A stretch of DNA of 61,403 nucleotides. Source: Clostridia bacterium (GTDB taxonomy: Bacteria; Bacillota; Clostridia; Oscillospirales; Acutalibacteraceae). The stretch lies in the NCBI GenBank assembly GCA_017531385.1, contig JAFXLD010000064.1, forward strand, positions 1 through 61,403. The letters run 5' to 3'. The notes beneath the pieces are model-generated. The model saw nothing but the letters and a program-made list of their open reading frames with translations, was not told where the DNA came from and did no database searches. Position numbers and translations under genes: made by a program. Shown here piece by piece: positions 29,333 to 61,403 of the stretch. Position 1 is the stretch's first letter. The number at the start of each line of letters is the position of its first letter.

Positions 29333-29408
29333 AGGGGTATAGCTCAGTTGGTAGAGCAGCGGTCTCCAAAACCGCGTGCCGAGGGTTCGAACCCTTCTGC
29401 CCCTGCCA
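29333..29408 (+). tRNA. tRNA-Trp (anticodon CCA), prophage attachment gene
   Basis: Acceptor AGGGGTA pairs with TGCCCCT; discriminator G and encoded CCA (29406-29408) are right for Trp. Loop CTCCAAA gives anticodon CCA. The 3' 46 nt are repeated at the window end, showing that the prophage used this gene as its attB. Confidence 0.97.
29363..29408 (+). repeat. attL (tRNA-Trp 3' half)
   Basis: Identical to 61358-61403 for the first 26 nt and last 14 nt. Three differences (G/A, A/G, C/T) fall in between, in the T arm. Confidence 0.93.
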
Positions 29409-29592: not shown

Positions 29593-30729
29593 TTATGCAT
29601 TCAAATAAGCATCAAGTTGAGTGATATTATTTATCCTGTGTTCTTTTTGTAAATGTGTATAGATTGACAGGGTAGTCTTCGGATCTGAATGTCCCATTTG
29701 TTCTTGTGCAACGAGAACGTCAATACCTGCTTCGTACATCATTGTGCAGAAGGTATGCCGTAAACAATGATATGTGAAAGGCTCAATCATCATTGAAGCT
29801 TTCTGCGGTGCAAATTTATTTGTCGGCTGAATAAAATTACCGTATTTCAGGTTCATATCTGTTATATAGCTTTCAAGCAATCGTTTCCATGCTGTTTCTG
29901 TCATCATCTTATTGTTTGCACTTGTTATTACGTAAGGTGAAGTTCGTTCTTCTTTCTTCAGAAAATCAATCAGTATCGAAGGAACGGATATAAGTCTGCT
30001 TTTGCCGTTCTTAGGAGCTTTCAATGCTTGTGTTTTGAAGTTGAATGATTTGGTGACAGATATTGTTTTATTTTTGAAATCAATATCAGACCAAAGCAAG
30101 GCTGTTGCTTCACCTCGTCTGAGTCCCGACAGCATAAGGAGCATCATTGCACGTTGTCCTCTGTGTGCAAATTCAATAATCCGTGAGCGTTCCGTTTGTG
30201 TCAAAGCTCTGCGTTCAGATTTTTCAGCGTTTTTCGGCGGCTTGATTCTCTGTGCCGGGTTGAAGTCAATTGCTCTGTTATCAATGGCAAAGTCAAAGAT
30301 GTTTCTCAGTATATTTATATATGATAACAGGGTACGTCTTGCAGTTGGTTTTCCTGTATATGGATTGCAGATGAAAAGTTCATTAATGACCTGCTGAATG
30401 TTCATTGGCAATACATCAGAGATTGTGAATTCTTTGAAATACTGTTTCCATACTTCGGCTCTGCTGCTGATTAACTTGTATTGTTCTGCACTTACTTCAC
30501 TTTTCTTTGACATTAAGAAATAATTTGCCCAGGTAACAAAGCTGTCCTTTTCTTTTGTAATGTCGATACCTTTGCACATTTTCAGGCGGAGTTCTTCGGC
30601 TTTCTGGTCTGCTTCTTTCTGTGTTGAGCCGTAGACGGTTTTATATTTGCGTTTTCCGTCTACAAGACCGAGATACACCTGAACGGCAATTCTGCCGTCT
30701 GCTCTCTTCTTATTTGATTTTTTTGCCAT
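29593..30729 (-). CDS. int: phage tyrosine recombinase (integrase)
   Basis: 378 residues. N-terminal arm-binding domain (GRIAVQVYLGLVDGKRKYKTVYG, about 1-60), SAM-like core-binding domain (about 65-165) and catalytic domain with Arg in LSGLRRGEA, H-L-R-H in YHCLRHTFCT, the second His in MGHSDPKTT and the nucleophile Tyr in SIYTHL. It should recombine the tRNA-Trp att sites. The ATG at 30729 follows GAGGAG. Located at the attL end and read toward it, as is usual. Confidence 0.95.
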   Translation of the reverse strand: MAKKSNKKRADGRIAVQVYLGLVDGKRKYKTVYGSTQKEADQKAEELRLKMCKGIDITKEKDSFVTWANYFLMSKKSEVSAEQYKLISSRAEVWKQYFKEFTISDVLPMNIQQVINELFICNPYTGKPTARRTLLSYINILRNIFDFAIDNRAIDFNPAQRIKPPKNAEKSERRALTQTERSRIIEFAHRGQRAMMLLMLSGLRRGEATALLWSDIDFKNKTISVTKSFNFKTQALKAPKNGKSRLISVPSILIDFLKKEERTSPYVITSANNKMMTETAWKRLLESYITDMNLKYGNFIQPTNKFAPQKASMMIEPFTYHCLRHTFCTMMYEAGIDVLVAQEQMGHSDPKTTLSIYTHLQKEHRINNITQLDAYLNA

Positions 30730-30750
30730 TTTTGAACACACTCCTCAAAA

Positions 30751-44057: not shown

Positions 44058-44432
44058 TTGATTGATTTTGATATAGAAAAGGCTGTTTCTGATGAAGAAA
44101 AAAGATTGAAGCGACAGTTTAACGGAATTGATAAAAAGGCAAAAGCTGTTGTTCTCGGTCTGATTGAAAATGCGGCTTTTATGCGTGTTCAGCTTCGTAT
44201 ACTTAAAGAAGATCTGACTGAGAACGGTGTTACCGAAATGTTCAAGCAGTCAGAGAATCAGAAGCCTTATGAACGCAAACGCCCACAGGCGGAACTGTAC
44301 AACTCAATGAACACAAACTATCAGAAAATTATAAAACAGCTTACTGATCTGCTTCCGAAGACTGAAGTTAAAGCACCGGTAAAGAGTGATGAAGATTTTG
44401 AAAGCTTTGTAGACAGCCGTGAGGATTTGTGA
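44058..44432 (+). CDS. terS: terminase small subunit, P27-like
   Basis: 124 residues with a TTG start at 44058 (GGTGA upstream); the frame is open further left but lacks a ribosome site. KKAKAVVLGLIENAAFMRVQLRILKEDL and the YNSMNTNYQKIIKQLTDLLP segment match P27-family small terminases, which recognise phage DNA for packaging. It overlaps terL by GTGA. Confidence 0.82.
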   Translation: MIDFDIEKAVSDEEKRLKRQFNGIDKKAKAVVLGLIENAAFMRVQLRILKEDLTENGVTEMFKQSENQKPYERKRPQAELYNSMNTNYQKIIKQLTDLLPKTEVKAPVKSDEDFESFVDSREDL

Positions 44433-46093
44433 GAAATCCTATAATTGAATACTATGGCAAAATTCTCTCCGGTGAAGAGGTCGTAAGCAGAAAAATACGG
44501 AAAACATACAGAAAACTCGTCTGGGATATAGAGCATCCCGGCGAGTATTTTTATTCCCCGAAACGAGCAGCACACGCAATTGATTTTATTCAGAATTATT
44601 GTAAACATTCAAAAGGTAAGTTCGGCGGTAAGCGTGTTATTCTCGAACTCTGGGAGCTTGCTTTAATTGCTGCCATTTTCGGTTTTATTGACATCAACGG
44701 AAACAGAAAATACAGAGAAGTTCTGCTGATTGTCGCAAAGAAAAACGGTAAGAGTCTTCTTGCTTCTGCAATAGGCTTGTATATGCAGGTTGCAGACGGT
44801 GAAGCCGGTGCAGAAGTCTATGCTGTCGCAACCAAACGTGACCAGGCTAAAATCATCTGGTCTGAAGCTAAGAGAATGGTTAAGAAATCTCCCGTTCTCT
44901 TATCTAAAATCAGAACTCTTGTTTCTGAAATGGTCTGTGATTTCAACGACAGCGTTTTCAAACCTCTTGCATCTGATTCCGATACACTTGACGGTCTTAA
45001 TGTTCACTGTGCATTGATGGATGAAATACATCAGTGGAAGAACGGCAGAGCATTGTTCAACATTATTGCTGACGGTGTAACCGCAAGAGAACAGCCGCTT
45101 ATATTCATGACATCTACAGCAGGTTTTATTCGTGGTGACCTGTATGACGATAAATATGAGTATGCAAAAAAGGTTATAAACGGTTACTTTGACGACAACG
45201 GATATAAAGACGAAAACTTCCTTGCGTTGGTTTATGAGCTTGATGACCGAAAAGAATGGACTGATCCGAATTGCTGGAAAAAGGCAAACCCCGGACTTGG
45301 CACAATTAAGAATCTTGAAACTCTCCGTAAAAAGGTTGAAACAGCAAAGGCGAATCCGCAGTTTGTTAAAAATCTGCTTTGCAAGGAATTCAATATACCT
45401 GAAACTTCTGAAGAAGCGTGGCTTTCATGGGAAGAAGTTAACAATACAGCTCTTTTCGACATTAATGCATTAAAACCGAGATACTGCATCGGTGGTGTTG
45501 ACCTTTCTTCAACAACTGATCTTACTGCAGCCTGTATCATTTTCAGAATTCCAGGTGATGATACAATCTACTGTTATATTATGTTCTGGATCGCTGATGA
45601 CCTTGTAGAAAAACGGGTAACGGAAGATAAAGTTCCATATGACCAATGGATTGATGATGGATACGTTCGCACCTGTCCCGGTAATAAAGTAAGCTACAAA
45701 ATGGTGGCTGATTGGTTTGAGGAAGTTCAGAATGAGCTTGATGTATATATTTTCAAAATCGGCTATGACTCATGGTCTGCAAAATATTTTGTTGATGATC
45801 TGACAAACAGATTCGGTGACAGCGTTCCTGTTCCTGTCATTCAGGGCAAGAAAACACTTTCATCACCGATGAAAAACCTCGGTGTGAATCTTGCATCGAA
45901 GCTTGTCAATTACAATAACAATCCCGTTCTGAAATGGTGTCTTGCAAATACTGCATATGACGAGGACAAGAACGGCAATATTCAGCCTTGCAAGACAAGC
46001 AAGCCTACAAGACGAATTGACGGCACATCGGCTCTGCTCGATGCCTGTGTTGTATATGAAGACAATAATGAAGAATATATGAGTATGATTTGA
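44429..46093 (+). CDS. terL: terminase large subunit
   Basis: 554 residues, GTG start at 44429. Packaging ATPase with Walker A VAKKNGKS and Walker B CALMDEIH, coupling motif MTSTAG, then a RNase H-like nuclease domain with the acidic GGVDLSSTTD segment and a late DACVVYED. Full length. Confidence 0.95.
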   Translation: MRNPIIEYYGKILSGEEVVSRKIRKTYRKLVWDIEHPGEYFYSPKRAAHAIDFIQNYCKHSKGKFGGKRVILELWELALIAAIFGFIDINGNRKYREVLLIVAKKNGKSLLASAIGLYMQVADGEAGAEVYAVATKRDQAKIIWSEAKRMVKKSPVLLSKIRTLVSEMVCDFNDSVFKPLASDSDTLDGLNVHCALMDEIHQWKNGRALFNIIADGVTAREQPLIFMTSTAGFIRGDLYDDKYEYAKKVINGYFDDNGYKDENFLALVYELDDRKEWTDPNCWKKANPGLGTIKNLETLRKKVETAKANPQFVKNLLCKEFNIPETSEEAWLSWEEVNNTALFDINALKPRYCIGGVDLSSTTDLTAACIIFRIPGDDTIYCYIMFWIADDLVEKRVTEDKVPYDQWIDDGYVRTCPGNKVSYKMVADWFEEVQNELDVYIFKIGYDSWSAKYFVDDLTNRFGDSVPVPVIQGKKTLSSPMKNLGVNLASKLVNYNNNPVLKWCLANTAYDEDKNGNIQPCKTSKPTRRIDGTSALLDACVVYEDNNEEYMSMI

Positions 46094-46102
46094 GGTATTT
46101 CA

Positions 46103-47254
46103 ATGGGTATGTTTTCAAACAAAAACAAAGTAGTTACAAAGTTTAAACTCGTGACCGATGTCGGTAACGGGTTCTATGCTTTTGACGGCAATGTATACAA
46201 ATCTGACATTGTCAGAGCCTGCATCAGACCGAAGGTAAAGGCAATCGGGAAACTGGTGCCAAAGCATATATATACAGCTGAACAAGCAGACGGTACGACA
46301 AAACTTGAAGTAAATCCCGATGCATATATCAGATTTCTTCTTGAAGATCCGAACCCGTATATGACAGGGCAGGATTTACAGGAAAAGGTTGCTACACAGT
46401 TAATTCTCAACAGCAATGCTTTTATTCTTATTATCCGTGACGATAACGGATTGCCTTATCAGTTATATCCTCTTCCGGCAACATATGTTGAAGCCTTGTA
46501 TGATAACTTCGGGGAGCTTCATCTTCAATTTACTTTTGCAAACGGCAGCACATATCAGTTTTTCTATACTGACATTATTCATCTGAGAGAAGACTATTAC
46601 GAGAATGATATTTTCGGAACGTCAAAAATCCCTGCGCTGTTACCGCTAATGGAAATTGTTACAACAACAGATCAGGGTATAGTCAAGGCAATAAAAAATT
46701 CAAGTATTGTCAGATGGCTTCTGAAATTTCATAATTCACTCCGTCCTGAAGACAAAAAGAATGAAGCAGACCAGTTTGCTAAAAGCTTTCTGAGCGTCGG
46801 AGACGGCGGCGGTAATGGTGTTGCTGCAGTTGACAGTAAAGCAGAAGCAGTTCAGATACAGCCGCATGATTATGTTCCCAATTCCGCTCAGATGGAAAAA
46901 ACAACACAGCGTATTTTTAATTTTTTCAACACGAACATCAAGATTGTTCAGTCTAACTGGACGGAAGATGAATGGAACAGTTATTACGAAGCTGAAGTTG
47001 AGCCTGTTGCAATGAAATTTGCAAACGGCTATACCAAAGGTCTTTTTACAAGACGGGAACGGGTTCACAATAAAATTGTTTTTGAAGCTTCCAATCTTCA
47101 GTGTGCTTCGATCTCCACAAAACTTGCGTTTGTGTCTATGGTTGACAGAGGTGCATTCCTTCCCAATGAATGGAGAGGTACATTTAATCTTGCTCCCATT
47201 CCCGGTGGTGACGAGCCTATCAGAAGACTTGACACTAAACCGATTGAGGAATAA
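46103..47254 (+). CDS. HK97-family portal protein
   Basis: 383 residues. The pattern of residues DIVRACIRPKVKAIGKL, LNGNAFILI-like LNSNAFILIIRD, PLPATYVEAL and HLREDYYENDIFGTSKIPAL is typical of HK97 portals that form the dodecameric DNA entry vertex. Starts 9 nt after terL. Confidence 0.93.
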   Translation: MGMFSNKNKVVTKFKLVTDVGNGFYAFDGNVYKSDIVRACIRPKVKAIGKLVPKHIYTAEQADGTTKLEVNPDAYIRFLLEDPNPYMTGQDLQEKVATQLILNSNAFILIIRDDNGLPYQLYPLPATYVEALYDNFGELHLQFTFANGSTYQFFYTDIIHLREDYYENDIFGTSKIPALLPLMEIVTTTDQGIVKAIKNSSIVRWLLKFHNSLRPEDKKNEADQFAKSFLSVGDGGGNGVAAVDSKAEAVQIQPHDYVPNSAQMEKTTQRIFNFFNTNIKIVQSNWTEDEWNSYYEAEVEPVAMKFANGYTKGLFTRRERVHNKIVFEASNLQCASISTKLAFVSMVDRGAFLPNEWRGTFNLAPIPGGDEPIRRLDTKPIEE

Positions 47255-47282: not shown

Positions 47283-47963
47283 ATGAGATTTAATCTTTTT
47301 GGTACTATTGTTGAGAATGAAGACAAGTGGTTTTATGAATGGTTCGGTATGGAAGCCGTCTGTCCCAAGGATATAATTGATGCCATTGCAAAAATCGATG
47401 ACAAGGAAACGGTTGATGTTTATATCAATTCTCCGGGCGGCAGTGTATTTGCAGGCAGTTCAATCTATTCAACACTCAGGGAGCTTCATGACCGAGTAAA
47501 AATCCACGTTGTGGGAATTGCAGCTTCCGCTGCATCAGTTGTTGCCTGTGCAGGTCAGAGTGACATTTCTCCAACGGCAATGTTAATGATTCATAACTCT
47601 GCAACATCGTGTCAGGGTGATTATCATGCTATGGATAAAGCTTCTGAACGACTGCAACAGGTCAACAAAGCAATTGCTTCAGCGTATGTTGCAAAGACCG
47701 GCATGAGTGAACAGGAAGCCCTTGAACTTATGGACCGTGAATCATGGATAACAGCTTCACAAGCTGTTGAATACGGTCTTATTGATTCCATTGCAGGTCA
47801 GGAGCTTAACAAACCTGCAAACAGCTCACAGATGCAGATTGTTGCATCTCTCGGGAATATTATTCCCAAAGAAAATATCAGTAAATTATCTGCCCTTTTA
47901 AAGGAAACAGATTATTTAAATGCACAAATCGAATTTTTAAAATTGAAAGGAAATGCAAAATGA
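47283..47963 (+). CDS. ClpP-type head maturation protease
   Basis: 226 residues. YINSPGGSVFAGSSIYSTL, the serine in GIAASAASVVA and the histidine in MLMIHNSAT form the ClpP-like site. It would cleave the delta domain of the capsid protein. GGTGGTGAG precedes the ATG; ends with ATGA overlap to the capsid gene. Confidence 0.94.
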   Translation: MRFNLFGTIVENEDKWFYEWFGMEAVCPKDIIDAIAKIDDKETVDVYINSPGGSVFAGSSIYSTLRELHDRVKIHVVGIAASAASVVACAGQSDISPTAMLMIHNSATSCQGDYHAMDKASERLQQVNKAIASAYVAKTGMSEQEALELMDRESWITASQAVEYGLIDSIAGQELNKPANSSQMQIVASLGNIIPKENISKLSALLKETDYLNAQIEFLKLKGNAK

Positions 47964-49162
47964 CAAGAGAACAGTATTTAAACAAAAGAAATGAACTTCT
48001 CACGCAGGCTCAGGCACACCTTGATGCTCACGATATGGAGAAGTTCAATGAAACAAAAGCTGAAATCGAAAAGCTCGACAGTCAGTTTGAAGAGTCAGCA
48101 AGAGAGCAGGCAAATCTTGATGCCCTCCGTGGTAATCCAGTAAACTGCAATCCCTTTGCAATGGCAGTCAACACTCCCACAGGTGACCCCGTTGCAACAT
48201 TCGGTGCTGCAAGCGGCACACCCGAAAACACAGATACATACGAACACGCATTTATGAACTTCGTATGTCGTGGCACCCCTATTCCTGAAAAATTCCAGAA
48301 TGCAACAACTGACACAACAGCAACAAAAGCTGTAATCCCCACTACAATACTTGATGAAATCATAAGAGAGCTTAAATCCAGTGGTTCTATCTATTCACAG
48401 ATAAGAATGCTCAATATTCAGGGCGGTGTTGAAGTTCCCATAGTTGACCTTATTCCCACTGCAACATGGATTACAGAAGAATCAGGTGCTGAAGAAAATC
48501 AGGTTAAAGCCGACAAGTCAGTATCTTTCTCTTATTTCGGACTTGAATGTCTTATTTCTCAGACACTTCTTGCAAATGTCACAAATCTTAAGGAATTTAC
48601 TGACAAATTTATTCCTCTGGCAGTTGAAGCTGTTATCAGAGCACTCGAAATTGCTGTTTTTAACGGCACAGGTAAAGGTCAGCCTCTCGGCATTACCAAA
48701 GATAAAAGAGTTACAAATATTGTCACACTTTCTGAGGCAGAATTCAACTCCTACAAGGGTTGGAAAACAAAGGTTTTTGCTAAGATGAAGAAATCCTACA
48801 AAACAGGTAAATTCTTTATGGCAGAAGCCACATTCCAATGTATTGACGGTATGGTTGATACAAACGGTCAGCCTGTTGCACGAACCAACTATGGTATAGG
48901 TGCCGATTTGAATTACTATTTCGGCGGTAAAGCTGTAGAAACAGTTGAAGAAGATATTATTGCATCCTTCACAGATGCCGCAAGCGGTGATATTGTCGCT
49001 GTATTTGCAGACCTGAGCAAGTATGGTGTCAACAGCAATATGCAGATGCATACTGTTCAGTGGGAAGACCACAAAACACATAAGAAGTATACATCTGTTA
49101 TGATTATCTGTGACGGTAAACTTCTTGACCCCAACGGTGTAATTATCATTAAGAAGGCTTAA
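47960..49162 (+). CDS. HK97-family major capsid protein
   Basis: 400 residues. Residues 1-100 are a charged helical delta (scaffold) domain to be removed by the protease; after that comes the HK97 fold (TTILDEIIRELKSSGSIYSQ, WITEESGAEENQVK, GTGKGQPLGI). Ends in VIIIKKA. Confidence 0.95.
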   Translation: MTREQYLNKRNELLTQAQAHLDAHDMEKFNETKAEIEKLDSQFEESAREQANLDALRGNPVNCNPFAMAVNTPTGDPVATFGAASGTPENTDTYEHAFMNFVCRGTPIPEKFQNATTDTTATKAVIPTTILDEIIRELKSSGSIYSQIRMLNIQGGVEVPIVDLIPTATWITEESGAEENQVKADKSVSFSYFGLECLISQTLLANVTNLKEFTDKFIPLAVEAVIRALEIAVFNGTGKGQPLGITKDKRVTNIVTLSEAEFNSYKGWKTKVFAKMKKSYKTGKFFMAEATFQCIDGMVDTNGQPVARTNYGIGADLNYYFGGKAVETVEEDIIASFTDAASGDIVAVFADLSKYGVNSNMQMHTVQWEDHKTHKKYTSVMIICDGKLLDPNGVIIIKKA

Positions 49163-51571: not shown

Positions 51572-51714
51572 GTGTTGACCGATGGTTTTACATCGGTAAA
51601 TGTCTGCTCGGGTTTGATGAAAAAACCACATGGAAAATGACAATCAGGCAAATCAAAGCGCTGTTTGATGAATATTGCTTTTTCCATGGGATAAAAAGGG
51701 CAGGTGAGGATTAG
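51550..51714 (+). CDS. T-extension of the tail chaperone (frameshift product, gpGT-like)
   Basis: In the -1 frame 54 codons follow the slip site (LGFRAVISVDRWFYIGK...KMTIRQIKALFDEYCF) and stop at TAG 51712-51714. The full product would be about 197 residues. No start codon with a ribosome site serves this frame, so frameshifting is the only sensible route. The tape measure gene starts with GTG overlapping this stop. Confidence 0.82.
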   Translation, partial: LGFRAVISVDRWFYIGKCLLGFDEKTTWKMTIRQIKALFDEYCFFHGIKRAGED

Positions 51715-54071
51715 TGGCAAAAAAAATCAGTGCAGGGATAGGTCTTGACGGTGAAAAAGAGTTTCGGCAGGCTGTAAAAGCTATCAACAGTGACCTGAAT
51801 GTTTTAAAATCTGAAATGAAACTTGTCACTGCAGAATTTATTGATAATGAAGATTCTATAAAATCATTAAAAGCGCAACAAGAAGTTTTAAACAAGCAAA
51901 TTAATGAGCATTCAGAAAAATGCAATATTTTAAAATCTGCTTTACAAAATGCAACTAAAGCTTATCAAGAAAATGTTGCACTTCTTCCAAAAATGGAAAA
52001 AAATCTAAATTCTGCAAGAAATGAATATGAACGAATAGCAAAGGCTTTCGGTAAAAACTCTGATGAAGCTAAAGCTGCAAAAAGGGCGCTTGATTCTGCA
52101 CAAAAAAGCTATGATGATGTTTCTAAGGCTACACAGCACGCTCGCTCTCAAATGAATCATTGGCAAAAGGCACTTAATGAAACAACTGCAGATATACACA
52201 AAATGAAAAAAAATCTTGATGACCTTGAAGATAAATCAAAAGTCATTAATAGATTGAAATCTACATTTGATTCACTGACAGATAAAATTGATGATGCAAA
52301 AGAAAAAACTGAAAAGTTTCGAGATGGTTTAGATAAAATCGGTGATGCTGCTAAAAAGGGAGTAAAAGTTGCTACAGGCGCAATAACAGTTGCAGGTGGT
52401 GCAATAGTTGCATTAACAAAAAATGCTGTTGAAAATTATGCTGAATATGAACAGTTAATAGGCGGTGTCGAAACTCTTTTCGGTGCTGGTGGACAAAGTC
52501 TTTCTGAATATGCAAAGGCAAATAATGCCACATGGGCAGAAGTAAAAAAAGATTATGATTTACTGATTCAATCACAACAGGATGTAATTGATAATGCTAA
52601 TGTTGCATATAAAACAGCTGGTATATCTGCTAATGAGTATATGACAACCGTCACTTCTTTTTCTGCAAGTTTGTTACAAAGTCTTGAGGGCGACACCGTA
52701 AAAGCCGCTGAAAAGGCAGATCAAGCTCTTATTGACATGTCAGATACTGCAAATAAGATGGGTTCAGATATGCAATCAATCCAAAATGCATATCAAGGCT
52801 TTGCAAAGCAGAATTACACAATGCTTGATAATCTAAAGCTTGGTTATGGCGGCACAAAGGAAGAAATGGAACGATTGCTTGATGATGCTGCAAAATTAGA
52901 CAAAGCTTTTGCAAAACAGTTTAAGGACTCAGGCTATGATATGAGTTTTTCTAATGTTGTTGATGCTATTCATATCATTCAAAGTGAAATGGGTATCACG
53001 GGTACAACAGCTAAAGAAGCAAGCACAACAATTACAGGTAGCATCAGTTCAATGCAAGCATCGTGGCAGAACCTGCTCACAGGTATTGCAGATGAAAATC
53101 AAAACACTGATGATCTGATAGACTATTTTGTTGACAGTGTAGTTACTGTGGGAGAAAATGTTACACCTGTGGTTGAAGAGTCATTAAAAGGTATTGGAGA
53201 TTTAATCGAGGGGTTAGCACCCGTTATTGTTAACGATTTGCTTCCCTCAGTGATGAATGATGTATTGCCGGATATAGCCAAAAATGCAACCGAAATAATA
53301 TCAACATTAACAAAAGGTCTTTCAGAGAACAAAGAAGGGGTAATCAATTCTGCGGTTAAAATAATAACAGAACTCGGCACGGGATTAATAGGTTGCGCTC
53401 CTGACATAATTGATGTTGGTATGGATCTTATTATCGGTCTTATTGACGGCTTGACTTCTCCTGAATCAATGGAAAAGCTTATCGGCGGAGCTATTGAATG
53501 CATAGGAAAAATCACTTCAACTTTGATTGAGAAAATACCGGACATTTTAGCAATCGGCGGTCAGATTATTGAAGGTCTTTGGAATGGTATCAAAGACAAA
53601 GACGGATGGCTCAGAGAGAAAATTTCAAGCTTTTTCGGTGGTGTAAAACAGAGTATCAAGGACTTCTTCGGTATCGCATCTCCCTCAAAATGGGCAAGAT
53701 ATGAAATCATGGGTAATGTAATGGATTCATTTGGTCTTGCGATTGATGAAAATGCCGATAAAGTCAGAAATAAAATGACTGCTTTTACTGCTACATTGAC
53801 AGAAGATGTTGAATATGACCTCAGAATCAGTGACATCAATGCTCAGATTGCTTCTGCAGATATTCCTGCATCTGTTCTTACTGTCACTCATACTCAGCCT
53901 GCGCCATCCAATGATGATAAATTTGACCGTATGCTTGCACTGCTTGAAATTATCGCAATGAACAGCAAAAAGGACCTCTTGATTGATAAGAAAACTCTTG
54001 TCGGTGAGTTGGTTCCTGAGATAAACGAAGAACTCGGCGATATTTTAGTAAAACAGGAGAGAGGATCTTAA
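51714..54071 (+). CDS. tail tape measure protein
   Basis: 785 residues, GTG start. The first 220 residues are coiled coil. Around 210-235 is a glycine/alanine-rich hydrophobic helix, followed by the tape-measure core (LIGGVETLFGAGGQ, MDTANKMGSDMQSIQNAYQGFAKQ-like). At the end PSKWARYEIMGNVMDSFGLAI is typical. The length suggests a tail near 120 nm by the usual 0.15 nm per residue. Confidence 0.95.
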   Translation: MAKKISAGIGLDGEKEFRQAVKAINSDLNVLKSEMKLVTAEFIDNEDSIKSLKAQQEVLNKQINEHSEKCNILKSALQNATKAYQENVALLPKMEKNLNSARNEYERIAKAFGKNSDEAKAAKRALDSAQKSYDDVSKATQHARSQMNHWQKALNETTADIHKMKKNLDDLEDKSKVINRLKSTFDSLTDKIDDAKEKTEKFRDGLDKIGDAAKKGVKVATGAITVAGGAIVALTKNAVENYAEYEQLIGGVETLFGAGGQSLSEYAKANNATWAEVKKDYDLLIQSQQDVIDNANVAYKTAGISANEYMTTVTSFSASLLQSLEGDTVKAAEKADQALIDMSDTANKMGSDMQSIQNAYQGFAKQNYTMLDNLKLGYGGTKEEMERLLDDAAKLDKAFAKQFKDSGYDMSFSNVVDAIHIIQSEMGITGTTAKEASTTITGSISSMQASWQNLLTGIADENQNTDDLIDYFVDSVVTVGENVTPVVEESLKGIGDLIEGLAPVIVNDLLPSVMNDVLPDIAKNATEIISTLTKGLSENKEGVINSAVKIITELGTGLIGCAPDIIDVGMDLIIGLIDGLTSPESMEKLIGGAIECIGKITSTLIEKIPDILAIGGQIIEGLWNGIKDKDGWLREKISSFFGGVKQSIKDFFGIASPSKWARYEIMGNVMDSFGLAIDENADKVRNKMTAFTATLTEDVEYDLRISDINAQIASADIPASVLTVTHTQPAPSNDDKFDRMLALLEIIAMNSKKDLLIDKKTLVGELVPEINEELGDILVKQERGS

Positions 54072-54072
54072 T

Positions 54073-54798
54073 ATGGACGGTACCAAATACGGCGGATATC
54101 ATTCTTATGAAAAATTCGGTCTGTTGCGTTCTGCAAGACCTGTCATAAGTGACCCGGAAGTAAAAACTCACATAGTTGATAATCCCGGTGCTAACGGTGA
54201 TATTGATTTGACAACTTCTCTCACAGGTGTTCCGCAATACAAAAATCGAACCATAACTGAATCATATATTGTCAGAGGGGACAGGAGACAAAGAGAACAT
54301 CTGCCGTCAAGGTTGTATTCACATTTTGACGGTTCAAGAGAGTACATCATTATCGATAATGACCCCGGCTATATGTGGCTTGGTCGTTCATTGGTTAAAG
54401 GTGTGGATAAGTCAAGCGAAACTCATATGAAGCTCAACATTGTAAGCGATGTTGAGCCTTTTAAATATGAGCGTTTTTCTTCGATAGATGACTGGGAATG
54501 GGATTATCTTAATTTTGAAACAGGAATCATTCGTGAATATAAAGATATTTATGTTGATGGAATCTGTGAAATTGAAATTATCGGCACAAAAAGGCCGTCA
54601 ATCCCTGTTTTTCATCTTTCGAATGTTACATCTGATATCAGTGTTGAATACTATGACGGTGTTCTTGACAGAACGGTGCTTGCTAACTTGTCAAAAAGAG
54701 AAGACACATCGGATATTATTATTCGTGAAGGTATAAATAGGCTTAGCTTTTACGGAGTCGGATATGTTTCAATTGAATACCGAGGGGGTATTCTCTGA
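54073..54798 (+). CDS. distal tail protein (Dit)
   Basis: 241 residues. DLTTSLTGVPQYKNRTITESYIVRG and the pattern of an N-terminal tail-ring domain with a C-terminal jelly-roll-like part fit Dit of siphoviruses. Begins 1 nt after the tape measure stop. Confidence 0.83.
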   Translation: MDGTKYGGYHSYEKFGLLRSARPVISDPEVKTHIVDNPGANGDIDLTTSLTGVPQYKNRTITESYIVRGDRRQREHLPSRLYSHFDGSREYIIIDNDPGYMWLGRSLVKGVDKSSETHMKLNIVSDVEPFKYERFSSIDDWEWDYLNFETGIIREYKDIYVDGICEIEIIGTKRPSIPVFHLSNVTSDISVEYYDGVLDRTVLANLSKREDTSDIIIREGINRLSFYGVGYVSIEYRGGIL

Positions 54799-55859
54799 TG
54801 TTTCATATCTGGCTTGATGATAAAAAATTGCATGTTCCCGACAGCAGAGAGTTCCGCAAGCTCTCTGCTGCTGAGCTTGATACGGAGCTTAACAAAGCAG
54901 GTACACTCAACATAAAAATACCGCCTGTTCATATTCTGTACAACTCTATCACCAATTTGAAAAACTGTATCACCGTATATGATGACGATGATATGATTTT
55001 TAAAGGCAGAGTAATCAAGCAGAGTGCAGATTACAAAAACTTAAAAACAGTCACTGCAGAAGGTGAGTTCGCATACTTCAATGATTCAGTTTTTCAGCCA
55101 TCAAAAATCGGTGAATATAACACAGCTCAGTTACTTCCCGAAATTATAAACAGTCATAATAAACAGGTTGATGAATGCAGACAATTTCAGGTAGGTAACA
55201 TTGAACCTTATGTTTTTTGCGTTACATCGCTGAAAATATATAACTCTATGCGTTTTTTACAAGATGAAGTAATTAAAAGCACCGGAGGATATTTTTCTGT
55301 AAGATATGAAAAGGATGTCAGATTTCTTGATTTTTCTCTTTTACCCGGTGTTGAGGACACATCAACGAAAATTGAATTCGGTGTAAATCTGCTTGATATC
55401 AATAAATATATTGATTCTACTGCTCTTTATACATGTATTGTCCCATATGGAGAGACTGACAAGAATACAGGCAAGCCTCTTGATATTACTTCTGTTAATG
55501 CAGGTGTTAATTATGTTGAGAATGCCGCAGCTGTTGCAGAGTTCGGAAGAATTTTTAAGCCCGTGGAATTCAAAGGTTTTACAGATCCTGAAATGCTTTA
55601 TTCCGAAGCTATAAAATTTGCAAATAGTGTTGTAGCTGAAGCAATTACACTTGATCTGACAGCAATTGAAATGCGACAGATTGATTTTCAGAATCCTTAC
55701 GGAGTATTTAAGCAAGGAAATTACTATAAAGTAATTTCAAAACCACATGGCGTTAATGAATTTTTCTTGTGTTCTAAGAAAAAAACAAATTTATTTTTAC
55801 CGGAAAACAATAAGGTTCAACTCGGTCATACAAGAAAAAGACTGACAGATTTCATTTAA
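54798..55859 (+). CDS. tail-associated protein (Tal), prophage endopeptidase-tail family
   Basis: 353 residues, one-base overlap with dit. Corresponds to the N-terminal baseplate hub domain (gp27-like) of Tal; no lysin domain is attached, so it is a short structural Tal. Confidence 0.83.
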   Translation: MFHIWLDDKKLHVPDSREFRKLSAAELDTELNKAGTLNIKIPPVHILYNSITNLKNCITVYDDDDMIFKGRVIKQSADYKNLKTVTAEGEFAYFNDSVFQPSKIGEYNTAQLLPEIINSHNKQVDECRQFQVGNIEPYVFCVTSLKIYNSMRFLQDEVIKSTGGYFSVRYEKDVRFLDFSLLPGVEDTSTKIEFGVNLLDINKYIDSTALYTCIVPYGETDKNTGKPLDITSVNAGVNYVENAAAVAEFGRIFKPVEFKGFTDPEMLYSEAIKFANSVVAEAITLDLTAIEMRQIDFQNPYGVFKQGNYYKVISKPHGVNEFFLCSKKKTNLFLPENNKVQLGHTRKRLTDFI

Positions 55860-57359: not shown

Positions 57360-58088
57360 ATGGCTGTAAATGAAAACAGAGGTATTAACGCAAACGGTCT
57401 TTCACACTTATTGCAGGGCTTAATCAATCTTTTTGTTAAAAAAGAAGACGGCAAAGGTCTTTCGTCAAATGACTATACACTTGATGAAAAAGTCAAGCTG
57501 GCAGGTATTGATACAGGGGCAAATAAGACAGTTGTTTCTGACAGCTTGTCAAACCCTTCCTCAACTGATGCTTTGTCTGCAAATCAGGGTAAAGAGCTTA
57601 ATGACAAAATCAACGCTATCAACATCAACATGGGCAATCTCGGTGGCGGCGATATGATGAAATCTGCCTATGACACTGACGGTGACGGTAAGGTTAATAG
57701 TGCAGACAATGCGGATAAACTCGGCGGTGTACCTGCTTCTGAGTATGTCAAGCAGACTGATATCGAAAACCTTGCACCGGGTAAACACAATCACGAACAG
57801 AGCGATATAAACGGACTTTCGGAAACTGTTGCAGCTGTTACCAATATCGCAAACGGAAAATGTAAAACGGAAGTGTTTGACACCGTTGATGCTATGAACG
57901 TTTGGCTTGCAAATTCCGAAAATACAAAAGAGCTTAAAACGGGCGATGTATTTCTTATCCGTGCTGTTGATGTTCCCGACTACTGGTGGGACGGCAGTTC
58001 TGCACAGGTTCTTGAAACAACAAAGATAAGTATTGAATTTCTGACAAATGATGAAATTGATGAAATCCTCGGTCTTGCAACCAACTAA
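57360..58088 (+). CDS. tail fibre protein with EF-hand-like loop
   Basis: 242 residues. N-terminal MAVNENRGINANGLSHLLQGLINLF, a shaft (ADKLGGVPASEYVKQTDIENLAPGKHNH) and a DTDGDGKVNSAD loop that matches a Ca-binding F-hand. Similar N-terminal module in the next gene. Confidence 0.72.
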   Translation: MAVNENRGINANGLSHLLQGLINLFVKKEDGKGLSSNDYTLDEKVKLAGIDTGANKTVVSDSLSNPSSTDALSANQGKELNDKINAININMGNLGGGDMMKSAYDTDGDGKVNSADNADKLGGVPASEYVKQTDIENLAPGKHNHEQSDINGLSETVAAVTNIANGKCKTEVFDTVDAMNVWLANSENTKELKTGDVFLIRAVDVPDYWWDGSSAQVLETTKISIEFLTNDEIDEILGLATN

Positions 58089-58790: not shown

Positions 58791-59537
58791 ATGGCAAAGA
58801 AAATCTACATAGACGCAGGTCACGGCGGTGTACAGCCGGGTGCAGTAAACGGTAAGCGTAAGGAATCTGACGATACACTCAGACTTGCCCTTAAGCTTCA
58901 GGCACTTCTCAAAGACCAGGACTGTGAAGTCCGCCTGTCACGTTCAAAGGATGTTGATATTAAAATCAATGACCGTTGCAGAGATGCAAACAACTGGAGA
59001 GCTGATTATTTCCTTTCCATTCACCGTAATGCGGCATCTGCATCGGCAACAGGCAATGAAATTTGGATATATTCCAAAGCAAACGAATATACCGAAGCCA
59101 AAGCAAGAAACATTCTCAATGCTGTCTGCAAGGTTGACGGTCTTAAGAACAGAGGTGTAAAGCGTGGTGCTCCCTCATACACCGACTATGGTGTAAACAG
59201 AGACACAAATATGCACTCTGCTTTGATTGAGCTCGGCTTTATTTCAAATTCATCTGACAACAAGGTCTATGATGCAAAGCTTGATGCAATCGCTCTTGCT
59301 CTTGCAAAGGTTCTTCTTTCGGTTGTCGGCTCTGAATGGAAAGAGCCTATAATTATGGGTGATGTCAACGGCGATGGAAAAGTAACAGCTGCAGATGCAA
59401 GGGAAACACTCAGAACCGCTGCACAGCTTGAAACACTTTCCGAAAAGGAAAAAGTTGCTGCTGATATGAATGGTGACGGCAAAGTCACCGCAGCTGATGC
59501 AAGAGAAATTCTTAAAGAATCAGCAGGGGTGAAGTGA
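58791..59537 (+). CDS. endolysin: N-acetylmuramoyl-L-alanine amidase with C-terminal type I dockerin
   Basis: 248 residues from the ATG at 58791 (GGAG 9 nt upstream). Residues 1-180 are Amidase_3: zinc ligands His11 (DAGHGG), Glu25 and His78 (SIHRNA) and catalytic Glu147 (LIELGF). It cleaves the amide between MurNAc and the stem peptide. Residues 189-247 are a dockerin: two duplicated F-hand calcium loops DVNGDGKVTAAD (191-202) and DMNGDGKVTAAD (225-236), each followed by a helix. Dockerins bind cohesins of cellulosomes and of some cell-surface scaffolds, so this lysin may dock to host surface cohesins. No signal peptide; release is through the holin. Confidence 0.93.
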   Translation: MAKKIYIDAGHGGVQPGAVNGKRKESDDTLRLALKLQALLKDQDCEVRLSRSKDVDIKINDRCRDANNWRADYFLSIHRNAASASATGNEIWIYSKANEYTEAKARNILNAVCKVDGLKNRGVKRGAPSYTDYGVNRDTNMHSALIELGFISNSSDNKVYDAKLDAIALALAKVLLSVVGSEWKEPIIMGDVNGDGKVTAADARETLRTAAQLETLSEKEKVAADMNGDGKVTAADAREILKESAGVK

Positions 59538-59538
59538 T

Positions 59539-59817
59539 ATGACGAATGAAGAAATCGTTGAAAGAATTACCGCTGCCGAACAGGCTGTAAAAGCCGCACA
59601 GCATCAGATTAACGAAATGAAAGAGCTGACAAGCTCTATTCATGAGCTTGCTTCTGAGGTCCGTTATATGCGAAATGACATCAATAAGATGCAGTCCGAT
59701 ATTGACGAACTCAAGGCAAAACCTGCAAAACGCTTCGATCTTATCGTAACAGCAATTATATCAGCTCTGTCAAGCGGAGTTGTTGGCTTCGCAATCTCAC
59801 AGATTCTTGCACATTAA
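59539..59817 (+). CDS. XhlA-like coiled-coil lysis protein
   Basis: 92 residues: a helical heptad region (1-70) and one C-terminal membrane helix (VTAIISALSSGVVGFAISQIL), the hemolysin XhlA layout, usually beside holin and endolysin. Confidence 0.78.
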   Translation: MTNEEIVERITAAEQAVKAAQHQINEMKELTSSIHELASEVRYMRNDINKMQSDIDELKAKPAKRFDLIVTAIISALSSGVVGFAISQILAH

Positions 59818-59837: not shown

Positions 59838-60089
59838 ATGGAAATTCTCACATACATAACCGAAAACGCACTCATTCTCATTCCCGTCCTTCTGATCCTC
59901 GGTCTGATTCTCAAAAGACTTGAGTTCATCCCGGACAAATATATCCCCGTTATCCTCTTGCCCTTCGGCATCCTCGGTGCAATGGCTCTCGGCGGTTGCA
60001 CTGTCCCGTCTGCTATCCAGGGAATCCTCGTCACCGGCGCCGCCGTCTACGGTAATCAGATTTATAAACAGCTTAATAAGACAGAATAA
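59838..60089 (+). CDS. phage holin
   Basis: 83 residues, three hydrophobic segments (about 10-24, 37-55, 59-72) and a charged C-terminus, as in the Phage_holin_5_2 type family. It would open the membrane for endolysin. Codons are notably C-rich at third positions compared with neighbouring genes. AAAGGA precedes the ATG. Confidence 0.85.
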   Translation: MEILTYITENALILIPVLLILGLILKRLEFIPDKYIPVILLPFGILGAMALGGCTVPSAIQGILVTGAAVYGNQIYKQLNKTE

Positions 60090-60137: not shown

Positions 60138-60287
60138 ATTAAATAATAGCAACTGTTTGAATGTTTTATTGTAAAAAATTGTTTTTTCTTGTTACAAATT
60201 ATATTTTTATTTGTTTATAAATATATGTAAATCAATATAAAAGTATATTGTAATTTATAAATTATGATTATAGAGAGTGTGAGATTA

Positions 60288-61259
60288 ATGTCAAAAGTTA
60301 TGCTTGATAATTGGGGAATGACTGAATGTATTAACAAGAGGTTTGATGTTAAAAATAATTATGACGGATATAGACATTTTAATCATTATGGAATTGATGA
60401 TAAAATTACTGATGCATGTTGGCAGAATTTTTTAACAAGTTGTATTTTGTGGGACGATATATACTTGATGTTTGATGATAGTAGTTTTTCTCTTGATTTA
60501 GAAACACCTTATTTTATAAATTTTGCAAAACAATATATTAGTCAAAATGATTTTTTACATATTAATAAAAGACGTTCTATTGGTAAGTATGATTATTATA
60601 AAATAGTTAATCTTTATACTCGTACTCAATCAGATGATTTAAAGGATTATGACAAAGAATTATTGATGAGAGCATATATTTACTTATCTGAAGCAAATTT
60701 ATCAGGATATAGCTATGTTCCTCATCCAATTAGAGCAAAATTATTATATGATTCACAAATATTTAAAAAAGGTTTTGATAGAAAATTATATTTGGACATA
60801 ATTGACGAGGAAGTAGATGCTTATATTAATTACGTGAATGAATTATGCAAAAATCAACTCATGACTACATCAATTCCAGTATTATATAAATTTATATCTG
60901 ACAATGCTAAAGATGTGAAAGAAGAGTTGGATATTGCAATATCATTAAGAAATGACAAGAATGTAAGAAAATTGAGAGAAAGTTTGAATGAAATTGAAAA
61001 AGAAGTCTCTAATGGATTTTTATTTAATTTGGCACAAAGTTTGCTTATTGTAAAAGACATCTGTAATGAAATAACTGATACATTGTACAAAAAACCATTA
61101 TCAACTGAAATTTCACTAGGCTTAAGTCCTGCAATTAATATAGGCTGTGATTTCGATGTAAAAACATCGTCAACCGCATTACATACTACTTTTTTGTATG
61201 ATATTACAAAATATGCGATAAAAGGAGATTTGGAGAATAGGTATAAAAAATATTTTTAA
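60288..61259 (+). CDS. AT-rich cargo gene beside attR, unknown function
   Basis: 323 residues from the ATG at 60288; an ATG at 60264 would add 8. No strong ribosome site is present. The protein looks soluble and helical, rich in Asn, Asp, Lys, Ile and Tyr; no signal peptide or clear membrane helix. A charged helix around 220-260 (LRNDKNVRKLRESLNEIEKEVSNG) may be coiled coil. No family recognised. It lies after the late terminator and before attR, where phages keep lysogenic conversion or defence genes, and it is visibly more AT-rich than the phage late genes, suggesting separate transfer. Confidence 0.75.
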   Translation: MSKVMLDNWGMTECINKRFDVKNNYDGYRHFNHYGIDDKITDACWQNFLTSCILWDDIYLMFDDSSFSLDLETPYFINFAKQYISQNDFLHINKRRSIGKYDYYKIVNLYTRTQSDDLKDYDKELLMRAYIYLSEANLSGYSYVPHPIRAKLLYDSQIFKKGFDRKLYLDIIDEEVDAYINYVNELCKNQLMTTSIPVLYKFISDNAKDVKEELDIAISLRNDKNVRKLRESLNEIEKEVSNGFLFNLAQSLLIVKDICNEITDTLYKKPLSTEISLGLSPAINIGCDFDVKTSSTALHTTFLYDITKYAIKGDLENRYKKYF

Positions 61260-61357: not shown

Positions 61358-61403
61358 TCTCCAAAACCGCGTGCCGAGGGTTCAAGTCCTTCTGCCCCTG
61401 CCA
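61358..61403 (+). repeat. attR (second copy of tRNA-Trp 3' half)
   Basis: TCTCCAAAACC...CTGCCCCTGCCA, 43 of 46 positions identical to attL. Not a complete tRNA; only the part from the anticodon loop to CCA. Confidence 0.92.

Follow-up and report, generated by a model that had tools for sequence, protein, structure and literature searches.

A prophage endolysin of a Clostridia bacterium ends in a type I dockerin that probably docks to cohesins of the host cell wall

The stretch of DNA analysed here (61,403 nucleotides from a Clostridia bacterium, hereafter the window) harbors a prophage of approximately 32 kb in a tRNA-Trp gene. Two copies of an attachment site, read on the forward strand as a 46-bp direct repeat (93%), delimit it: the first (29363..29408) is located inside the 3' end of the tRNA gene (29333-29408, ARAGORN), which remains intact at the left prophage end, and the second (61358..61403) forms both the right prophage end and the end of the contig. 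On the left, the reverse strand encodes a tyrosine integrase (29593..30741; PF00589, 87.9 bits) and an HTH/S24 phage repressor (32561..33271; PF00717, 70.8 bits). Packaging, head and tail genes lie between the repeats, with a terminase large subunit (44429..46093; phrog_9, E 1.7e-159), a portal protein (46103..47254; phrog_12), a major capsid protein (47960..49162; PF05065, 73.7 bits), a tape measure protein (51714..54071; phrog_6900 and phrog_58) and a tail endopeptidase-like protein (54798..55859; PF06605, 68.2 bits; phrog_3558) on the forward strand; the ORF at 54073-54798 was labelled Dit from its position. A dockerin was considered and rejected for the tail-fibre-like protein at 57360-58088, which contains a single DTDGDGKVNSAD calcium-loop-like stretch and scores below the cut-off (E 0.092). 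An ORF of 331 aa (60264-61259), which may be a cargo gene, lies in the AT-rich DNA that separates the holin from the right attachment site; Pfam gives it no match up to E 1.

Translation, Pfam, PHROGs and a predicted structure together define an endolysin gene of 248 codons for amino acids at 58791..59537 on the forward strand, in which an Amidase_3 catalytic domain (residues 5-168, 58803..59294; Pfam, 136.6 bits against a cut-off of 27) precedes a type I dockerin. PHROGs annotates the protein as an endolysin, and H11, E25, H78 and E147, the zinc ligands and the catalytic glutamate of this family, are invariant in all five rows of our amidase-dockerin alignment (A1). No signal peptide is seen at the translated N-terminus (MAKKIYIDAGHGG), and the lysin thus lacks the signal-dependent secretion by which a cellulosome enzyme is recognized. 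It is directly followed, on the same strand, by an XhlA/hemolysin-like coiled-coil lysis protein of 92 aa (59539..59817; phrog_937, E 4e-10, with the Pfam XhlA match under its cut-off) and then by a holin of the Hol44 family of 83 aa (59838..60089; PF16079, 72.6 bits; phrog_1129). The product of 58791-59537 is the endolysin of a temperate tailed, siphovirus-like phage.

Residues 187-248 of this lysin (59349..59534, forward strand) are a complete type I dockerin. The Dockerin_1 profile matches residues 190-239 with 48.6 bits (Pfam cut-off 22.9) and is covered from position 2 to 51 of 57. The translation contains two F-hand calcium loops, DVNGDGKVTAAD (residues 191-202, 59361..59396) and DMNGDGKVTAAD (residues 225-236, 59463..59498), and the predicted structure places them, with helices at residues 200-210 and 234-245, in a dockerin fold. 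When this structure was compared with Foldseek (pdb_via), all 62 of 62 residues superposed at 1.1 Å on 2ccl_B, a dockerin bound to its cohesin, 56 residues at 1.0 Å on 1ohz_B and 62 residues at 2.0 Å on 8ajy_B, the dockerin of R. flavefaciens ScaH; positions 10-11 of the first-repeat loop are A-A in the window dockerin and S-T in 2ccl_B. Dockerins bind two calcium ions. An internal start at Met189, preceding G190, which would yield a free dockerin, was rejected, since L037, L038 and L040 have Lys in place of this methionine and L039 has Ala. The initial annotation had described the gene as a phage endolysin ending in a complete dockerin of two F-hand loops with their helices. Both parts are borne out, the former by the Amidase_3 domain, the PHROGs assignment, the lysis cassette and the prophage context, the latter by the fold and by the profile search it had proposed, in which the match lies far above the cut-off and spans both repeats.

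The host genome (G000), a draft of 2.47 Mb in 107 contigs and 83% complete, contains 61 dockerin matches, 59 of them above the cut-off, and the phage dockerin has the top score. Cohesins in the host had been anticipated from the lysin itself, and the genome scan did find them, with five matches, four of which are above the cut-off; four sortase matches were also obtained. A cohesin encoded within the prophage was considered and rejected, none being matched on the window contig (C26). Read by eye, two of the cohesin proteins (L001 and L002) comprise a signal peptide, one cohesin, a Pro/Thr linker and an IPQTG-TM-RKK tail, two others (L003 and L004) have a membrane anchor, and L005 combines a cohesin below the cut-off with a dockerin. 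The sortase matches and the tails of L001 and L002 would fit docking at the wall. Among the best-scoring 29 of the 60 other host dockerin ORFs, 10 of which are cut at the N-terminus by the end of the locus, the 25 families listed include SH3, GH25, carboxypeptidase, deacetylase, CAP and LRR and no cellulase family, and because of this the host dockerins may represent a general surface-attachment tag. By a crude rule, 18 of the 19 ORFs whose N-terminus is visible have a signal-like start. The one without, L012, joins GH25 to a dockerin and precedes an XhlA-like ORF (39% identical to that of the window) and a holin (74%); the two dockerin proteins of the host that were read and lack a signal are therefore both phage-type lysins. 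On host contig C95 (L208, 10015-14813), a compact module consists of a sigma-like ORF, fibre-like ORFs, a GH25-dockerin lysin, an XhlA-like protein and a holin; its neighbors, by eye, are a glycyl-tRNA synthetase gene, genes resembling cellulases and one of MMPL type. Capsid genes are not seen, and the module is either what is left of a phage or a lysis cassette that has been domesticated.

Full-length amidase-dockerins with both domains above the cut-off are encoded in four further genomes, at 85, 72, 59 and 38% identity (G008, G006, G018 and G053, respectively), and both F-hand repeats are retained over this whole range. When 300 genomes were drawn from the host family, an amidase match (E 1e-30) was obtained in 48, and in nine, from five genera, the match runs through the dockerin (G000, G006, G008, G018, G053, G124, G155, where it lies at a contig edge, G253 and G288; a match to residues 5-236 in G211 was left out). 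Within the host genus, 3 of 11 genomes have an amidase-dockerin. Homologues of XhlA and/or the holin adjoin the lysin in G006, G008, G018, G253 and the IMG/VR contig L066, and in G124, as read by eye, the next ORFs encode a small membrane protein and a coiled-coil protein; neither an XhlA nor a holin homologue was found beside the amidase-dockerin gene of G288. In this last genome (contig C58; L250, 7351-9358), 226 bases separate the amidase-dockerin gene from a convergent gene, whose product has one cohesin and an IPKTG anchor tail. At another locus (L251, 5439-6272), an ORF that precedes the lysin gene in a stretch of phage tail-like genes has a lone ADMDLDGKITASDAR loop of the host dockerin pattern near its N-terminus.

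In the six of the nine dockerin-lysin genomes whose cohesin proteins were read (G000, G006, G008, G018, G053 and G288), one such protein combines a single cohesin with an (I/V)P(Q/K)TG tail. Dockerin matches number 32-61 in the nine dockerin-lysin genomes versus 1-15 in nine genomes selected from the 48 with an amidase match, as ones whose related lysin was taken to be of phage type with another tail (G099, G139, G184, G200, G215, G217, G249, G281 and G175), a separation that is descriptive because the comparison genomes were chosen by hand and the genomes are related. Cohesins are present in 9/9 of the former and 7/9 of the latter, which says little since they are common among relatives (65 of 98 genomes), and we rejected their co-occurrence as too weak to serve as evidence for docking.

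A tree of 38 Amidase_3 catalytic domains was built from those matches whose locus sequences were available, without L213 (same place as L039), L089 and L223 (both cut) and others; L072, on a long branch, was omitted from a second tree. Following the first tree, the labels of L072 and L076 were changed by hand. Well-supported branches force the dockerin tail to have changed at least three times, by gain or loss, and a single clade of dockerin lysins is rejected (p-AU 2.8e-44). The dockerin lysin L216 groups as the sister of L067/L068, both of which are SPOR-tailed; the sister group of L040, likewise with a dockerin, consists of the SPOR-tailed L217, L218 and L230 together with L226, which has another tail. 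SPOR domains bind peptidoglycan. The dockerin stands beside SPOR-tailed relatives at two positions of the tree and thus occupies a slot of wall-binding modules. Behind the SPOR domain of L068 (345-1118) lies a seemingly decayed half dockerin, possibly the trace of a tail swap.

Dockerins are also found on other phage lysins. A scan of IMG/VR for the dockerin DNA motif returned 29 stretches, 20 of whose ORFs were searched with Pfam and the rest read by eye (L168, L169, L171, L176, L186, L187, L190, L192 and L195). A peptidoglycan hydrolase domain scores above the cut-off in 13 of the 20: GH25 in seven (two with CHAP, two with LysM), Amidase_3 in two, Amidase_2 in two, CHAP alone in one and M23 in one. 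Seven of these hydrolases have a dockerin above the cut-off, and such dockerins sit on GH25, CHAP and M23 enzymes, the M23 protein matching the first half of the profile only; six (L173, L174, L177, L178, L180 and L182) have a single F-hand, that is, half a dockerin, below the Pfam cut-off, and Amidase_2 is found with single F-hands. A further gene of the window prophage is matched on 4 of the 13 hydrolase stretches (L172, L173, L179 and L183), and for the remaining nine the phage origin rests on IMG/VR. Four more IMG/VR ORFs are tail-like proteins with a dockerin above the cut-off. Two of them (L188, 1851-3032, and L191, 1-642) are Dit-like, 30-32% identical to the window ORF 54073-54798, and may possibly form a cohesin-binding tail tip; L170 (1483-3858) and L193 (10086-12773) encode, by eye, large tail-like proteins with the dockerin at the end. 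Among named phage records, the window lysin has 117 matches, each covering less than 80% of its length, and the CHAP-dockerin L172 has 593, two of them over 80%, the eight matches listed stopping at residue 163 or 176 of 215. The five records that match the window dockerin alone are all unverified fecal scaffolds with ORFs that look cellular by eye. In one of these five, a human fecal 'phage' scaffold (L205, 2867-4192), a signal-bearing CHAP-like protein with an SH3-like part and a dockerin looks bacterial by eye.

An ADAR..LR pattern dominates in the 28 best-scoring host dockerins, in which R14, L17 and R18 are conserved at 93/96%, 96/96% and 93/89% in repeats 1 and 2, respectively (28 and 27 repeats read), and the phage dockerin agrees at the non-calcium positions, with R/R, L/L and R/K. 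Its nearest cellular dockerins, among sequences from earlier searches, are 68-69% identical and belong to an Oscillospiraceae MAG (L090), a member of the same genus (L053) and the host (L022). Phage dockerins as a whole show two sequence patterns: the IMG/VR GH25/CHAP lysins L074, L075, L084, L180 and L182 have dockerins or half dockerins of an NVTDV..AAHVKG-like pattern, closest to those of Ruminococcus albus, and the GH25 lysins L073 and L012 display the ADAR pattern, which therefore does not follow enzyme type. Agreement of the dockerin with the host pattern is shown solely for lysins encoded in bacterial genomes, those of the window phage and of its relatives there. Relative to L037, the closest pair, dN/dS is 0.19 for the dockerin and 0.10 for the amidase part, the dockerin being less constrained; relative to L038 the values are 0.09 and 0.12, with dS near 2.

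Based on these observations, we hypothesize that the dockerin fills the wall-binding slot and probably tethers the lysin, in a calcium-dependent manner, to wall-anchored cohesins of the host. The lysin, having no signal peptide, would stay cytoplasmic until the membrane is opened by the holin (59838-60089), and the Amidase_3 domain would then cut the peptidoglycan. Calcium outside the membrane would fold the dockerin, which in its folded form could plug into the single-cohesin proteins fixed to the wall by sortase, and docking would keep the enzyme at its substrate and, once the cell has lysed, bound to the debris. We thereby infer calcium binding, cohesin binding, a tether with its benefit, and an origin of the dockerin in a host. 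Several points argue against tethering. The six single-F-hand hydrolases of IMG/VR are hard to reconcile with ordinary docking, agreement with the host pattern is limited to the window phage and its relatives in genomes, the co-occurrence with cohesins is weak, the dockerin is less constrained than the amidase in the closest pair, and no XhlA or holin homologue was found next to the G288 gene. Hosts rich in dockerins would also be the likeliest place from which to capture one, and surface cohesins may lie outside the layer first met by an enzyme arriving from within.

The initial annotation had offered calcium-dependent folding beside docking, and the former, taken by itself, is the most probable of the alternatives. 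The dockerin might act as a calcium switch only, unfolded in the low calcium of the cytoplasm and folding outside, where it would activate or stabilize the amidase with no cohesin involved. The two calcium ions bound by dockerins would suit such a role, as would the existence of lysin tails with a single F-hand. A precedent is provided by the phage lysin LysGH15, which, according to an excerpt of its description, needs calcium at an EF-hand-like site (PMC4022735). However, R14, L17 and R18 follow the host pattern and are not required by calcium binding alone, and the module alternates with SPOR domains, themselves binders of peptidoglycan; these host-like residues and the exchange with SPOR would favor the docking reading, and we regard a mere switch as unlikely. 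The benefit might otherwise come after lysis, with freed lysin docking on the cohesins of neighbors or staying on debris, thereby sparing kin that can still be infected. The same anatomy and the wall-anchor tails of the host cohesins are consistent with this, as is the idea, raised for endolysin binding domains, that tight wall binding limits stray lysin; nevertheless it is a variant of tethering, the findings do not separate docking after lysis from docking during lysis, and as a distinct explanation we consider it improbable. Accidental capture, in which the lysin gained a host dockerin by fusion and retains it as a functionless passenger, could draw on the 61 host dockerin matches available for recombination, the seemingly decayed half dockerin of L068 and the faster change of the dockerin than of the amidase in the closest pair, but it appears very improbable given dN/dS values of 0.19 and 0.09, at least three tail changes on Amidase_3 lysins, dockerins above the cut-off on GH25, CHAP and M23 hydrolases with single F-hands on Amidase_2, and two repeats retained from 85% to 38% identity.

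If tethering to cohesins is taken as the preferred reading, a broader scenario may tentatively be drawn, in which phages of dockerin-rich gut Oscillospiraceae, and perhaps of Ruminococcus, repeatedly swapped polymer-binding domains for dockerins, so that the lysin receptor became a sortase-anchored cohesin. Some might even adsorb via a cohesin, given the Dit-like dockerin proteins on two IMG/VR contigs, and a host could then escape lysis or adsorption by altering its cohesins; lysins that bind polymers leave no room for such a coevolution. Should the dockerin bind host cohesins, what holds the lysin would be a well-studied, calcium-dependent protein-protein plug instead of a polymer of the wall. 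Purified parts and point changes would then allow the disputed function of binding domains in lysins to be tested, and lineage-specific handles on little-studied dockerin-rich gut bacteria would be gained. It would also suggest a job for non-cellulase dockerins and single-cohesin wall proteins, as a general surface-attachment system exploited by phages.

The C-terminal modules of the Amidase_3 endolysins PlyPSA (1XOV) and CD27L (3QAY) bind wall polymers, whereas that of the window lysin is a dockerin, a protein-binding module. With the type I and ruminococcal dockerins solved together with cohesin (2CCL, 1OHZ and 8AJY) it shares the fold and differs in sitting on a phage lysin. Among the matches listed in the literature searched, which largely omits subscription papers, a dockerin on a phage endolysin is unreported. 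Cell-wall hydrolases of bacteria with a dockerin are already known from the excerpted sources, for example the cellulosome lysozyme of Ruminococcus champanellensis (PMC6403190, citing Morais 2016 and Bensoussan 2017), and, as far as these sources extend, what is new is the dockerin on a phage lysin. Both that lysozyme and the window lysin join a peptidoglycan hydrolase to a dockerin; however, the excerpt discusses the former as a part of the bacterium's cellulosome (PMC6403190), and the latter is a signal-less phage gene in a holin-XhlA cassette. LysGH15 is likewise a phage lysin with an EF-like calcium site, which in the portion of the paper available is placed inside its CHAP domain (PMC4022735), in contrast to the separate C-terminal module of two F-hands in the window lysin. 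On the side of the putative receptor, the host proteins L001 and L002 share the layout of ScaE, described in an excerpt as a single-cohesin scaffoldin linked by sortase to the envelope of R. flavefaciens (PMC5301203). The same excerpt describes a dual binding mode for symmetric dockerins with similar repeats on the cohesin of wall-linked ScaE, and the window dockerin, like these, has two similar repeats (PMC5301203).
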